A stretch of 64,000 bases of DNA. Origin: Slackia heliotrinireducens DSM 20476 (GTDB lineage: Bacteria > Actinomycetota > Coriobacteriia > Coriobacteriales > Eggerthellaceae). The stretch spans positions 124,001 to 188,000 of the forward strand of contig NC_013165.1 of NCBI RefSeq assembly GCF_000023885.1, in the 5' to 3' direction. Made by a program: the position numbers and the translations under genes. Below, one piece after another: positions 31,430-55,678 of this stretch (position 1 is its first letter; each line of letters opens with the position of its first letter). Below the pieces are notes generated by a model. It worked only from the letters and a program-made list of their open reading frames with translations. It did not search any database and had not been told where the DNA came from.

Positions 31430-32728
31430 CTATTGCTCTTCGGTCCAGATGACGCTGTTTTCGTCGGGGCACTCCAGGAAGATCTCGTCGCCGGCGGCGT
31501 AGGTGCTGTCGGCGGAGGGCGCGACCATGATCAGGTGGTTGCCGTATGCGTAGGAGCCCAGGGCATAGTCGGGCGCGAACGCCACGACGCCTTCGTCAAG
31601 CAGCAGGTACGGTATCGACCCGTCCCTGATCAGGCTAAAGAAGTTGTCCAGGGCGATTTCAGGCTCATAGATGTCGGAGCCGTACAGGCTGACGAACGTG
31701 CGGCAGGCCTCCTGGGTCATGCTGTCGAGTTCGTCTTGGGAAATCCCCAAATACTCGGCGGCGGTCAGTTCCTCGCCCGTGCTCAAATCTACGATGCGGC
31801 CCGATCGGTAGGTCATGCCGTGTGCGGATCGAGCGCCTATTTCGTATACGTCCGTCACAAAGCTGACGACGCCCGCCCGCTCATCCAGATGACCGACGTA
31901 AATGTTGCTGTTCAGGTAATAAAGGCCGTCGTCGCCGTTTATATGCACGTCATCGGTCAGATACCGCTCTGCAGCCTCCTGCACCGCCACCCGGTTCTCT
32001 TCGTTCAGCTGGTCGATGTGCTTGCTGTAAGCGTCGCAGCTCAGCACGGGGTAGGTGAACGCCGTGTACCACGAGTCCTCGTAGTCGGTCTTGTCGGAAA
32101 TGTCGACGTATTCGGTCACATACGAGCACGCGATTTTGCGGACCGTCTTGTCGCCGATGGTGTAGGTGATCGACGAATCGCCCGTCTCCAGGTCGGCCTC
32201 GTCGAACCCGTCGGGAAGCACCAGTTCCAGGTCGCCCGTGTTATCGGACACATCCACCTTGGTCAGATGCGCGAACCCGCTGAAATCGACGGTGCCTTCC
32301 AGCTCGTTGCCGGAGACGTCAATCCGTTTCGCGTTGACGAACACGTCCAGACCTGTCAGGTCGGTCGCGGGGGTGTCGTCGCTGTCGACGTCGCGGGACA
32401 GGTCGATCTTGGTGACGGCCCCCGCCTCTTTGGAGGTCAGCCTGCCGTTGTCGTTCTCGTCCTGCTTCTCGACGAACTTGATGACCGCCTTGTCGGGGAA
32501 GTTCTCCTCGTTGATGGCAATGCCCGCGAAGAAGTTCTGGTATGCGAACACGCCGACGCCGATGACGATGACCGCACCCAGCACTCCGGCGAGAATGGGC
32601 ACGATGGGCGTCTTCTTCTTGGGCGCAGGCATGGCGGCCGGAGTGGCGGTAACGTTCAAGCGCTTGCCGCAGGAGCCGCAGAACTGCGACCCGTCAGGCA
32701 ACGTGGCTCCGCAATGGGGACAATACAT
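31430..32728 (-). CDS. Zinc-ribbon membrane protein with DUF3298-like C-terminal domain
   Basis: A 432-residue protein. The N-terminus is a short zinc ribbon (YCPHCG at 2-7, FCGSCGKR near 17), then a transmembrane segment at about 42-66 (IVPILAGVLGAVIVIGVGVF). The extracytoplasmic part has leucine-rich-like beta segments (LTGLDVFVNAKRIDVSGNEL, about 123-142) and a C-terminal region resembling the RsiV/DUF3298 fold (TYRSGRIVDLSTGEELTAAE, about 300). Function unknown; a membrane sensor is possible. The upstream region shares a GTTGTACAAC palindrome with the other zinc-ribbon gene at 51821. The ribosome site GGAAGG precedes the ATG. Confidence 0.75.
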   Translation of the reverse strand: MYCPHCGATLPDGSQFCGSCGKRLNVTATPAAMPAPKKKTPIVPILAGVLGAVIVIGVGVFAYQNFFAGIAINEENFPDKAVIKFVEKQDENDNGRLTSKEAGAVTKIDLSRDVDSDDTPATDLTGLDVFVNAKRIDVSGNELEGTVDFSGFAHLTKVDVSDNTGDLELVLPDGFDEADLETGDSSITYTIGDKTVRKIACSYVTEYVDISDKTDYEDSWYTAFTYPVLSCDAYSKHIDQLNEENRVAVQEAAERYLTDDVHINGDDGLYYLNSNIYVGHLDERAGVVSFVTDVYEIGARSAHGMTYRSGRIVDLSTGEELTAAEYLGISQDELDSMTQEACRTFVSLYGSDIYEPEIALDNFFSLIRDGSIPYLLLDEGVVAFAPDYALGSYAYGNHLIMVAPSADSTYAAGDEIFLECPDENSVIWTEEQ

Positions 32729-32758: not shown

Positions 32759-32794
32759 AGTATAGTCTTCGTCGCTGCATTGCGGTTGTACAAC
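32759..32794 (-). promoter_or_regulatory. Palindrome GTTGTACAAC plus TATACT box upstream of the zinc-ribbon gene
   Basis: The perfect 10-bp palindrome lies at 32785-32794. Reading leftwards, 20 bases separate it from TATACT (32759-32764). The same palindrome and a TATAGT box 19 bases on occur at 51752-51786. Confidence 0.5.
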
Positions 32795-51751: not shown

Positions 51752-51786
51752 GTTGTACAACAAAACCGAGAATTCTTCCGTATAGT
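51752..51786 (+). promoter_or_regulatory. Palindrome GTTGTACAAC plus TATAGT box upstream of the zinc-ribbon operon
   Basis: The perfect palindrome lies at 51752-51761, then 19 bases, then TATAGT at 51781-51786. It is the same arrangement as at 32759-32794 before the other zinc-ribbon membrane protein gene. Confidence 0.5.
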
Positions 51787-51820: not shown

Positions 51821-52465
51821 GTGTATTGCGGAAAGTGCGGAGCTGAGATTCGGCCGGGCGCTGCGTTCTGCCCGGCGTGTGGTGCGGCTGTTCCCGCGCG
51901 TTCTGGGGCGGCGCCTGCGCCGGCGGCCGTCGCGAAACCTGTCACGCCCAAGAGAACGTCGAACCGCAAACCGCTGGGCGGAAGCATCGCCGCGGCGGGG
52001 TTCCTGGCAGCGGTCCTGTTGCTTGCAGCAGCGGTCGCATGGGTGTATTTCCTGGTCAAAAGCACGCCGGATGCCATCGGGTCTTTCGGTATGACCTACA
52101 CGCGCCAGGGTACGGCCAAGGCCGCCATGGCCTTCATGGCTGCGGGTCTTGTGCCCATGCTCCTGTCCTGTTTCGGGTTCCTGCGGTGTGCCGGCGGTCT
52201 GGCCATTGGTGCGGCTGACGCCCATCCGTTCCGTTCCGCCCGCGTGTGGGCTGCATTGTGCCTGGTCATATCATTGGTGTTGCTGGTGGCCTGCATTCTG
52301 ATGCGCGACGTGCACAGCACAGGCAGGTTGATGCTGGTGGCCGCCATTGCCACGTCGTTTCTGTATCCGTCGGGCGTAGGCACGGGGCTTTCGCTCTGCT
52401 CGCTTTTGTGCCTGATTCACGCCGCTTCGAAATCTGCCAACCTTGAAAGGGGGACGATCCGATGA
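51821..52465 (+). CDS. Zinc-ribbon integral membrane protein
   Basis: A 214-residue protein starting at GTG. The N-terminal zinc ribbon is YCGKCGAEI with FCPACGAAV (CxxC pairs at about 3-6 and 18-21). About four membrane segments follow (about 47-71, 96-118, 141-162, 167-190) with short loops. It is the first gene of a three-gene operon; its stop overlaps the next start by four bases (ATGA). Function unknown. Confidence 0.7.
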   Translation: MYCGKCGAEIRPGAAFCPACGAAVPARSGAAPAPAAVAKPVTPKRTSNRKPLGGSIAAAGFLAAVLLLAAAVAWVYFLVKSTPDAIGSFGMTYTRQGTAKAAMAFMAAGLVPMLLSCFGFLRCAGGLAIGAADAHPFRSARVWAALCLVISLVLLVACILMRDVHSTGRLMLVAAIATSFLYPSGVGTGLSLCSLLCLIHAASKSANLERGTIR

Positions 52466-53148
52466 GAAAGTCACCTGTCCTGATAGCCGCCGTTGTGCTG
52501 TTGACCCTGGTCATCGCTGCTGTGGGCGCCGCGTTTCTGCTGAGCGACAAAGCTGCCGACAAGGCCGAGACCATGGTTTCCATCGGTGCCGACGAGAAGA
52601 CGGAAGCGACCGATGCCGAAGAGGGCGAAGCCGGCGAGGCCGAGGCCGCAACCGACGCGGACGACGATGCCGCTTCCTACTACGAGGCGAACTCCGACGT
52701 TCTGGATGTCGTGGCCGCGCAGGATTCCGCCGACACGATGACCGAAGACGAGGTTTTGGGTGAACTGGCGGGCCGCGGGTTTGAAGAATGCGTCGTGACC
52801 TCGGAATACACGATGGACGGGGAGTATGCCCCCGCCACCGAGGTCGCAGGTTATTCGGACGCGCACCCCACGTACAAGGCCGAATACACCACCCCGTCCG
52901 GCGAGCTGTGGGTGCTGTTCGTCTTCGACGGCGTGGTGATGGCGAACCCTACGTCGTACAACTTCGAATCGACCCGCGACGTGCAGACGGTCGTGTCCGA
53001 ATCCGAGAGCGTGGTCGCCTACGACAGCCAAACCAACACGTTCTACCACGTGGTACCCCATGAATCCATGCTGCACGTGGTGCAGGTCGACCGCATCGAC
53101 GCGGCGACTCTGGATGCCCTGACGGTGGAGGAGCTCGATCGGCGATGA
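52462..53148 (+). CDS. Exported acidic protein of unknown function
   Basis: A 228-residue protein with an N-terminal signal/anchor (VLIAAVVLLTLVIAAVGAAF, 6-25). An acidic, Ala-rich linker runs to about residue 78. A globular domain of about 150 residues then contains YKAEYTTPSGELWVLFVFDG and SESVVAYDSQTNTFYHVVPH. No lipobox is seen. It overlaps both neighbours by four bases, so it probably works with the zinc-ribbon protein and the SGNH-VWA protein. No family recognised. Confidence 0.65.
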   Translation: MRKSPVLIAAVVLLTLVIAAVGAAFLLSDKAADKAETMVSIGADEKTEATDAEEGEAGEAEAATDADDDAASYYEANSDVLDVVAAQDSADTMTEDEVLGELAGRGFEECVVTSEYTMDGEYAPATEVAGYSDAHPTYKAEYTTPSGELWVLFVFDGVVMANPTSYNFESTRDVQTVVSESESVVAYDSQTNTFYHVVPHESMLHVVQVDRIDAATLDALTVEELDRR

Positions 53149-55379
53149 GCGAACACATGACACACGAACTGCGCCGTACCTGCGCCTTTTGGATTCTGGC
53201 TTTTGCGCTTGCTGTCACGTGCGCGGCGCTGCAGGCCCAGGACGCCTTCGCCTACGACGAGAACGGCGATCCGGTCGTCGTGTCCATCGGCGACTCCTAT
53301 TCTTCCGGCGAAGGCATCGAACCCTTCTACGACCAGGACCTTCCCATGAAGGAGAAGGTTGAAAGCCAAGACTGGCTCGCCCATAGGTCCGAGCTGTGCT
53401 GGTCGGGGCGGCTGGTTGTGAAAGACGTCGACGGCAACGAGTTCCTCATGAAGGACCATCGTGACACGAACTGGTATTTCGTGGCCTCGTCCGGCGCGGT
53501 CAACGCCAATTTCTACGGCCCGCAATCCAAGCCCTATGTATATGAGGAGACGGTGGGCGCCGGAAACTCATACCACGTCGAAGGGGAGGGGTCGATCATT
53601 CCCCAGGCGGACGTGTTCTACGGCATCGAATCCGGAACAACCGATTACGTCACCGTGACCATGGGCGGAAACGACGTGGGGTTCGTCGACATCGTCACGA
53701 CCGCTGCGATGAACGACATCCCTGTTCTAGAGCGCGGGAACCTGCGGGACAAGCTGGGGAACGTGTGGGGCGAGTTCTACAAGGACCAGGGTGTTCGCGA
53801 CTACCTCAAACTCCTGTACGGGAACATCGCTTACGAGGCGGGGCCGCAGGCGAAGATCATCGTCGCAGGATATCCTGAGCTGATCTCGCGGGAAGGCAGC
53901 GGCTTTCTGTTCAGCGCGGAGGATGCGAAGCTCATCGACGACTCCGTCCAGGCCTTCAACGACGAGATCCAGAACCTGGTGGAAGAATGCCAGCAGGAGG
54001 ACATGAACATCTATTTCGTGTCTGTTCAAGACGAATTCGCAGGTCATGAGGCTTACACGTCCGACGAGTACATCAATCGGGTAAAGATCAACGCGCAGCC
54101 GCAGGACCTGAAGCCTGAGGGTCCGAGCGCTTACTCCGTCCATCCGAACGATAAAGGCGCCGCTGCGTATGCCCGGTGCGTGCAGCGCATGATCGACGAC
54201 ATTCAAGAGTGCGAAGACAACGGCGTCGATCCGCGTACTCTGATGGGCGACAGCAAAGTGGACCCCAACGACGCGTCGAGCAGGCATGTCGTGTTGGCCC
54301 TGGATACGTCCGGCAGCATGGACGGCGAGCCTTTGAACGAGACGAAGACGGCCACGCGGGAATTCGCCAGCACCATTTTCAAGAGCGACGCCGACGTGTG
54401 CCTGGTGAGCTACGACAGCTCCGCGCGCAACGTGATCGACTCGACCGACAACGAGTACGCCCTGAAAGCCGCCGTTCGCGACCTGTCTGCGGGCGGAGGC
54501 ACCAACATCGAGGACGCTTTGCGCGTGTCCTATGAGCGGCTTGAGGGCAGCGGATCGGACAAGCGGATCATCGTGCTGATGAGCGACGGTGAGGCCAACG
54601 AGGGCCTGGTCGGCGACGACCTGATCGCCTACGCGAACGAGATCAAGGACGACGGCGTGACCATCTACACGCTGGGATTCTTCCAGAGCGTGTCCGACAA
54701 GGCCGAATGCCAGCGCGTCATGGAGGGCATCGCCTCGCCCGGGTGCCACTACGAGGTGGACGACGCCTCGCAGCTGCGCTACTTCTTCGGGGACATCGGC
54801 GACGACATCAACGGCACGCGGTTCATCTACGTGCGCATAGCCTGCCCCGTCGACGTGCGCGTCAGCACTCCGGACGGTGTGCTGGACTCCAGCGACGACA
54901 ACCTGAGTACCCGCGCCGATTTTGGATCGTTGACCTTTGAGGAGACCCGCGACGGTGATGGCGAGGCTGACGACGAAGAGGCCGAGGATCGCGTCAAGAT
55001 CCTTCGTCTGAAAGAGGGCGAGCCTTACAACGTCGAGATCACGGGCACGGGGTCGGGCACGATGAACTGCACCGTCGGCTTCGAAGATGAGAACGGCGAC
55101 TATGCTGACCTGCGGGAATTCGAAGACGTTCCCGTGAACCGCAACATGCAGGCCGACATGACCGCCGAGGTTTCCGACATCACGACCCTGAAGGTGGACG
55201 AAGACGGCGACGGCTCCTACGACGTGACCTATGCCGCCGAGGCGAACTCCACCGCCGAAATCATGGACAACTCCCGTGTCGGCTACTACACGGCCCTTGC
55301 CCTGTGCATAGCCGCCCTGGCAGCCGTTATCTTGGGCATCCTGTACACCGCCCATCGCGTGCGAACCATTCGCCGCTAA
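53145..55379 (+). CDS. Secreted SGNH hydrolase fused to a von Willebrand factor A domain
   Basis: A 744-residue, probably cell-surface protein. A signal peptide (about 11-36) is followed by an SGNH/GDSL esterase domain: block I GDSYSSGEG with Ser51, block III GGND at about 174-177 and block V HPNDKGA with His at about 334. A VWA domain then has an intact MIDAS (DTSGSMD at about 387, later SDGEANEG). A beta-rich region with acidic spacer (about 560-710) leads to a C-terminal membrane helix (about 715-738) and basic tail RVRTIRR. The combination suggests an anchored esterase with metal-dependent adhesion. The substrate is unknown. Confidence 0.8.
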   Translation: MSEHMTHELRRTCAFWILAFALAVTCAALQAQDAFAYDENGDPVVVSIGDSYSSGEGIEPFYDQDLPMKEKVESQDWLAHRSELCWSGRLVVKDVDGNEFLMKDHRDTNWYFVASSGAVNANFYGPQSKPYVYEETVGAGNSYHVEGEGSIIPQADVFYGIESGTTDYVTVTMGGNDVGFVDIVTTAAMNDIPVLERGNLRDKLGNVWGEFYKDQGVRDYLKLLYGNIAYEAGPQAKIIVAGYPELISREGSGFLFSAEDAKLIDDSVQAFNDEIQNLVEECQQEDMNIYFVSVQDEFAGHEAYTSDEYINRVKINAQPQDLKPEGPSAYSVHPNDKGAAAYARCVQRMIDDIQECEDNGVDPRTLMGDSKVDPNDASSRHVVLALDTSGSMDGEPLNETKTATREFASTIFKSDADVCLVSYDSSARNVIDSTDNEYALKAAVRDLSAGGGTNIEDALRVSYERLEGSGSDKRIIVLMSDGEANEGLVGDDLIAYANEIKDDGVTIYTLGFFQSVSDKAECQRVMEGIASPGCHYEVDDASQLRYFFGDIGDDINGTRFIYVRIACPVDVRVSTPDGVLDSSDDNLSTRADFGSLTFEETRDGDGEADDEEAEDRVKILRLKEGEPYNVEITGTGSGTMNCTVGFEDENGDYADLREFEDVPVNRNMQADMTAEVSDITTLKVDEDGDGSYDVTYAAEANSTAEIMDNSRVGYYTALALCIAALAAVILGILYTAHRVRTIRR

Positions 55380-55396: not shown

Positions 55397-55678
55397 CCGA
55401 CCCCAGGCGGCGCAGCCCGCGCTTTGCCGAAGGCAACAGCGGGCGGCGGGACGGCCCTGTCCCGAGCAAGGCAGCGAAGGGCTGCGCTTTCGCGAAGCGA
55501 ACAGCAGCCCGGCGGGACGGCCTTCGTTCGGGACTCCGCCCTGGAGCCCCGTTCCGACCCCAGGCGGCGCAGCCCGCGCTTTGCCGAAGGCAACAGCGGG
55601 CGGCGGGACGGCCCTGTCCCGAGCAAGGCAGCGAAGGGCTGCGCTTTCGCGAAGCGAACAGCAGCCCGGCGGGACGGC
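55397..55678. repeat. Duplicated 125-base repeat composed of two types of GC-rich palindrome (BIME-like)
   Basis: The two copies are spaced 157 bases apart. Each copy contains palindrome A (outer arms GCCCGC/GCGGGC, first copy 55415-55444) and palindrome B (GGGCTGC/GCAGCCC, first copy 55479-55510). Both have an inner GCTTTnnCGAAGnnAACA core and both are followed by GGCGGGACGGC. Confidence 0.85.

Follow-up and report, generated by a model that had tools for sequence, protein, structure and literature searches.

Introduction

CLCA proteins combine an extracellular enzyme-type domain with a VWA domain bearing a metal ion-dependent adhesion site (MIDAS) and a beta-rich domain; CLCA4 is membrane-anchored, and the VWA domain docks on a membrane partner (PMC11231702). 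The dyad subtype of the SGNH hydrolases depends on Ser, Asn and His; it lacks an Asp at the third residue before the catalytic His (H-3), and a Ser at H-2 holds the His (PMC10779480). Streptomyces enzymes of this type, such as the S. rimosus lipase (5mal) and the S. albidoflavus phospholipase A1 (4hyq), are secreted as single domains. In the Bifidobacterium PFNA cluster, a Ser/Thr kinase is joined with VWA-related surface or membrane proteins (PMC6803598). Here, an operon of three genes, the last of which encodes an SGNH-VWA fusion protein, is described from a window of 64,000 bases (bases 124001-188000) of the single-contig, 3,165,038-base genome of Slackia heliotrinireducens DSM 20476 (G000). 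S. heliotrinireducens RHS 1T is an anaerobic coccus from sheep rumen (PMC3035243).

The preferred reading, which we hold with a probability of roughly 0.55, is that the operon encodes a membrane-anchored surface ester hydrolase of two modules that acts in a co-regulated cell-envelope programme. The individual domains are known, while their combination, the partner protein encoded by gene 2 and the regulon appear to be new. A first-pass annotation of the window had named no described system with this layout, and no description of the SGNH-VWA fusion or of gene 2 was found in the open-access literature, subscription literature not being covered. Relatives were drawn from 398 genomes of the class Coriobacteriia (class draw), 391 genomes around a Ruminococcaceae metagenome-assembled genome, G398 (Clostridial draw), and 396 genomes of the phylum Actinomycetota (phylum draw).

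Results and Discussion

Operon structure and distribution

The operon consists of plus-strand open reading frames (ORFs) at 51821-52465 (gene 1, 214 amino acids, GTG start), 52462-53148 (gene 2, 228 amino acids) and 53145-55379 (gene 3, 744 amino acids), and both gene junctions are 4-base ATGA overlaps, in agreement with the first-pass annotation. Relatives of the SGNH-VWA protein were found in Coriobacteriia and Clostridia. In the class draw the fusion was present in the window genome and in G309, G347, G292, G329 and G337, with fragments in G302, and in the Clostridial draw it was present in seven genomes including G398, one copy being degenerate. The Clostridial draw also contained an SGNH protein without a VWA domain (G429) and a second, SGNH-only copy (G703). 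No SGNH-VWA protein was detected in Actinomycetota outside Coriobacteriia in the phylum draw, and viral contigs and plasmids yielded just free Streptomyces SGNH or archaeal VWA proteins. The ATGA-type overlap and the gene order were seen again in other genera and in another phylum, which argues that the arrangement is not fortuitous; a chance juxtaposition of the three genes was ruled out by this recurrence together with the linkage between gene 2 and SGNH copies described below.

The gene 3 protein

The gene 3 protein begins with a signal-peptide-like segment. It continues with an SGNH hydrolase domain (residues 42-352; 53268-54200), a VWA domain (residues 378-553; 54276-54803; PF00092, E 1.2e-20), a beta-rich C-terminal domain (CTD; residues 554-706; 54804-55262) and a C-terminal transmembrane (TM) helix recognized as a hydrophobic segment (residues 711-739; 55275-55361). 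These assignments were made from Pfam, PDB and Foldseek matches and from residue checks.

The PDB sequences nearest to the SGNH region were the Streptomyces lipase 5mal and the phospholipase A1 4hyq. Matches to the Pfam GDSL families were below cut-off in the window copy and above it in L020 and others. As in the Streptomyces dyad-type enzymes, the domain has a GDSYSSG nucleophile block and a GGND block, a Ser at H-2 of the catalytic His and no Asp at H-3, and it is probably exported. Residues S51, G117, N176, S331 and H333 were identical in all 14 aligned sequences, and the Ser, Gly, Asn and His of blocks I, II, III and V are thus conserved as expected of the dyad subtype. Unlike the Streptomyces enzymes, the SGNH domain of gene 3 is fused to a VWA domain, a CTD and a TM helix, and it is accompanied by a dedicated partner gene.

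The VWA domain has the expected fold and retains the DxSxS, Thr and Asp residues of the metal site (D387-x-S389-x-S391, T453 and D481). These residues were kept in 12 of the 13 SGNH-VWA proteins examined, the sole exception being L117, in which three of them were lost. In Foldseek comparisons the VWA fold was related to adhesive VWA domains such as the SpaC pilus adhesin and Mfa5. The domain also weakly resembles CoxE, BatA and chelatase-type VWA domains. The predicted model of gene 3 was too weak for geometry. The signal peptide, the intact SGNH catalytic set, the intact MIDAS and the C-terminal helix listed in the first-pass annotation were all recovered. Taken at the level of sequence, domains, anchoring and residues bear out the architecture of a surface-anchored esterase, and the gene 3 product is most likely an ester hydrolase that is anchored in the membrane, faces outward and has an active site of the Ser-His dyad type.

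In outline, gene 3 is built like CLCA, with an extracellular enzyme-type domain followed by a MIDAS VWA domain and then a beta-rich domain. However, the catalytic domains are unrelated. The N-terminal HEXXH metalloprotease domain of CLCA is absent from gene 3, its place being taken by the SGNH domain, and gene 3 scored 34.5 bits against TIGR00868, for which the cut-off is 900.85. Because the protease domain is missing and the similarity is confined to the VWA domain, gene 3 is not a CLCA.

The VWA domain had earlier been suggested to bind host glycan or matrix, in which case the enzyme would deacylate the bound target. The intact MIDAS, the fold relationship to SpaC and Mfa5 and the surface anchoring are compatible with such an adhesin-esterase, but VWA domains have many non-adhesive roles, and the same VWA-CTD unit is also joined to unrelated enzymes (see below). 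Nothing specific to a host was found, and the genomic partners point instead to the envelope or to signalling, making this explanation quite unlikely.

The gene 2 protein as a candidate SGNH partner

The gene 2 protein (52462-53148) is acidic (pI 4.05), with a single hydrophobic segment at residues 1-32, an acidic linker and an ectodomain at about residues 78-228. In several relatives the gene 2 protein begins with a Zn ribbon ahead of the hydrophobic segment, which argues that the segment is an anchor. The earlier description as an exported acidic protein therefore holds for its acidity, while the protein is better regarded as membrane-anchored with its ectodomain probably outside. No Pfam family was matched. 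An AlphaFold2 model of the ectodomain, built from seven sequences, had a predicted local distance difference test score mostly of 85-98, and neither a PDB fold search (best E 0.39) nor a profile search returned a solved relative.

Of the 15 SGNH copies, 13 have a gene 2 homologue immediately upstream, and in nine the two genes overlap by 4 bases. In the class draw, strong gene 2 matches were confined to genomes with an SGNH-VWA protein; two further matches, at about 1e-6, covered the N-terminal part only. Gene 2 was still present at L121, where the SGNH protein lacks a VWA domain, and it was never found beside VWA-CTD proteins that carry a subtilase (L022, L120), an M4 peptidase or a class-3 lipase. 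As gene 2 follows SGNH copies, including the VWA-less one, and not the other enzymes, it most likely encodes a dedicated partner of the SGNH domain. An orphan family thereby gains a testable role as an esterase partner. As a separate observation, the SGNH-VWA copy L117 (G526) lacks three of the MIDAS residues as well as most of its CTD and its gene 2 neighbour, all lost together.

Gene 1 and the VWA-CTD platform

The gene 1 protein (51821-52465) has a PF13240 Zn_Ribbon_1 match above cut-off at residues 2-23 (E 1e-8) and about three to four hydrophobic segments, consistent with the zinc-ribbon membrane protein initially noted, and a homologue is present at L020. It resembles PF13240-type Zn-ribbon TM proteins in having an N-terminal ribbon followed by TM segments, as does gene 2 of L004, L114, L115 and L116. 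Unlike other proteins of this type, it is linked to an enzyme-VWA platform and to a palindromic promoter element. The G000 genome has 42 Zn_Ribbon_1 matches in about 33 reading frames, mostly N-terminal in membrane proteins, and the promoter element described below makes the function of this large unexplained family accessible to direct test.

Conservation of the two upstream genes with gene 3, on which the first-pass annotation had made its proposal depend, was found for gene 2 and only in part for gene 1. A gene 1 homologue is present in the closest relative and proteins of similar type precede other platform genes, but at other loci gene 2 or gene 3 carries the ribbon as a fusion. Clostridial copies have it at the N terminus of gene 2 (L004, L114, L115, L116) or in the C-terminal tail of gene 3 (L112, L114). 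If the TM topology is as drawn, all these ribbon positions would be cytosolic.

The VWA-CTD unit occurs with other enzymes, namely subtilase (L022, L120), thermolysin-like M4 peptidase (L023, L024, L026, L027, L029) and class-3 lipase (L025). Zn-ribbon proteins with about three to four TM segments are encoded 6-52 bases upstream of four M4-VWA genes, a Zn-ribbon/multi-TM gene also sits upstream of the lipase_3-VWA gene, at a distance of 10 bases, and at L022 a small Zn-ribbon/TM gene lies in front of the subtilase-VWA gene. No Zn-ribbon gene was found in the upstream position at L027 or at the Clostridial platform genes. At L031 and L032 a Zn ribbon, multiple TM segments, a VWA domain and a CTD occur without a recognized enzyme, and these proteins look like natural fusions. 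The profile match of gene 1 to the platform-linked Zn-ribbon/TM group was 97.9%, a value partly driven by the ribbon.

Compared with the clade B SGNH-VWA proteins (L028, L030, L033), the window protein is 38-45% identical in the SGNH domain, about 30% in the VWA domain and 11-16% in the CTD. In its VWA-CTD portion it is 40-50% identical to those joined to other enzymes. A VWA tree had few supported forks and was consistent with platform swapping, at weak support; the SGNH-domain tree was mostly unresolved, and no transfer claims were drawn from it. This gene distribution leads to the view that the operon joins a reusable VWA platform and its Zn-ribbon partner with an esterase and the esterase's own partner. 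Several unrelated extracellular hydrolases are thus built on a common VWA display platform that has Zn-ribbon partners.

Two further VWA-CTD proteins (L119:5143-7875, L122:3079-6036) have an unidentified N-terminal domain and a C-terminal Zn ribbon of cytosolic type. A caspase/gingipain-like enzyme, guessed by eye for both, received no support from Pfam or PDB sequences. Just two platform proteins were hit by a regular expression written for a juxtamembrane motif.

A palindromic promoter element

A perfect palindrome, GTTGTACAAC, lies at 51752-51761 (plus strand), 59 nt upstream of the gene 1 start codon, and is followed after 19 nt by a -10-like TATAGT (51781-51786). The geometry is that seen at other Zn-ribbon genes, and the palindrome would form the -35 region of the operon promoter. 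A second perfect copy (32785-32794, minus strand) lies 56 nt upstream of a minus-strand Zn-ribbon gene (31430-32728). Of the six genomic copies of GTTGTACAAC, three lie upstream of Zn-ribbon genes at distances of 56-60 bases.

In pattern searches of the genome, GTTGYRCAAC followed by a TANNNT box at a distance of 18-22 bases was found at 15 distinct palindromes, and the reversed pattern at none. Nine of the 15 sites are directly upstream of Zn-ribbon genes, with a near-constant spacing of 19-21 bases between palindrome and -10 box, and two belong to a cluster with ZnR-FHA, ClpB-type AAA, PP2C and kinase genes. The hypergeometric value for the association with Zn-ribbon genes was 6e-15, a figure that is partly circular because the Y and R positions were taken from Zn-ribbon genes. 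Sites in two other genomes are independent of that choice: the sole genome-wide match in G337 sits just ahead of the leading gene of the SGNH-VWA cluster, as does one of the five palindromes in G292, where another precedes a kinase gene. Control shared with the other Zn-ribbon gene of the window through GTTGTACAAC had been proposed at the outset, and the sites at 32785 and 51752 now appear as members of a promoter-linked set of about 15. Judged from these positions, the regulatory link between the operon and the Zn-ribbon genes is taken to be real. The element would tie about nine uncharacterized Zn-ribbon envelope genes to kinase clusters in gut Actinomycetota.

Two GTTGYRCAAC promoter-like sites are present at L092 (G000:C1:1715183-1723700), where an ORF of no known type, a ZnR-FHA-type gene, a radical-SAM-activase-like gene (assigned by eye) and genes for a ClpB-type AAA protein, PP2C and a Ser/Thr kinase of 999 amino acids are found. 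At L046 (G000:C1:2922252), GTTGTACAAC and a near copy, GTTGTATAAC, lie about 190 bases from the start of a ribbon-helix-helix-regulator-like gene.

Genomic company and proposed function

The clade B SGNH-VWA clusters encode an FHA membrane protein, a second VWA protein and a PP2C phosphatase, and they adjoin Ser/Thr kinases where the contig extends far enough. Clade B thus resembles the Bifidobacterium PFNA cluster in that a Ser/Thr kinase occurs together with VWA-related surface or membrane proteins, but the published description of PFNA includes neither SGNH-VWA nor gene 2 (PMC6803598). The PFNA set of kinase, FN3, MoxR-type AAA, DUF58 and transglutaminase was not recognized when the neighbouring ORFs at 48-60 kb of the window were inspected by eye. 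The second VWA-TM protein, encoded beside PP2C (L028:1912-3918, L033:10487-12610, L030:769-3033), has an N-terminal region that belongs to no Pfam family.

An envelope or signalling role is suggested since the partners are FHA proteins, PP2C, Ser/Thr kinases and Zn-ribbon membrane proteins, and this company favours a substrate in the cell's own envelope over dietary lipid or host material. A surface lipase or esterase that scavenges lipids of dietary or microbial origin, or O-acylated polysaccharides, in the rumen, with the VWA domain holding the substrate particle, would agree with the secreted Streptomyces lipase and phospholipase A1 being the closest solved relatives, with a rumen isolate among the sampled carriers, and with the digestive-type subtilase, M4 peptidase and class-3 lipase on the same platform. 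Against it, the ORFs listed around the operon include no transport or fatty-acid uptake genes, and clade B is linked to kinases, PP2C and FHA; scavenging is considered unlikely.

The ClpB-type AAA gene in the co-regulated cluster and the weak likeness of the VWA domain to CoxE, BatA and chelatase-type domains raise the idea that the VWA domain, instead of binding a ligand, helps to assemble or activate the enzyme or a different membrane complex, in the manner of MoxR/DUF58/Bat-type systems. The VWA domain is, however, predicted to be extracellular, apart from a cytosolic AAA protein, and no MoxR gene is among the listed neighbours, so that little weight is given to this idea. The kinases, PP2C, FHA and VWA proteins of clade B and the L092 cluster also resemble parts of nucleoside triphosphate-dependent conflict systems (PMC7159879). 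Membership in a biological conflict or anti-phage system nevertheless seems highly improbable: the SGNH-VWA protein would be extracellular, relatives are lacking from viral contigs and, as a fused protein, from plasmids, and none of the three proteins matched a PADLOC anti-phage model at E 1e-5.

For the preferred surface ester hydrolase, the following arrangement is proposed. Module A would be a display platform formed by the MIDAS-bearing VWA domain, the beta-rich CTD and the TM helix together with gene 1, the ribbon of which probably faces the cytosol. Module B would comprise the SGNH hydrolase of Ser-His dyad type and its dedicated single-TM partner, gene 2, the ectodomain of which probably aids folding of the SGNH domain, inhibits it or activates it. 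The VWA domain may grip a partner or ligand in a metal-dependent manner. The three genes would be produced together from the promoter with the GTTGYRCAAC palindrome as its -35 region, within a regulon that takes in Zn-ribbon envelope proteins and, both here and in relatives, clusters of Ser/Thr kinase, PP2C and FHA genes. The likely task is cleavage of acyl esters at the cell surface during envelope sensing or remodelling.

Several observations weigh against this reading. The envelope substrate is read from gene neighbours only. Gene 2 is missing beside two SGNH copies, L117 with its degenerate MIDAS and the stand-alone SGNH protein L118. Near the operon in G309, G347 and Clostridia, no copy of the promoter element was detected, and the homology of gene 1 to other Zn-ribbon/TM proteins rests partly on the ribbon.

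A wider scheme is offered tentatively. In it, gut Coriobacteriia and Clostridia would possess a hitherto undescribed modular surface-enzyme system in which one hydrolase can be exchanged for another (SGNH, subtilase, thermolysin-like, class-3 lipase), each displayed by a VWA-CTD-TM platform with a Zn-ribbon/multi-TM protein. The SGNH version would have, in addition, a membrane partner with a new fold as the enzyme's regulator, and some genera would tie expression to Ser/Thr phospho-signalling genes through a dedicated GTTGYRCAAC promoter.

Chromosomal setting of the operon

No SGNH-VWA protein was found in the other Slackia genomes of the class draw. In many Slackia genomes a permease-like gene (L132-L135, L137, L139, L142) fills the slot between rsgA and an HD-domain gene in place of the operon, which for this reason looks like a species-specific insertion. 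Just 3' of the operon lies a direct repeat, the core of which gave no further copy in the window in a probe search; its two perfect 125-base copies occupy 55397-55521 and 55554-55678, 157 bases apart.

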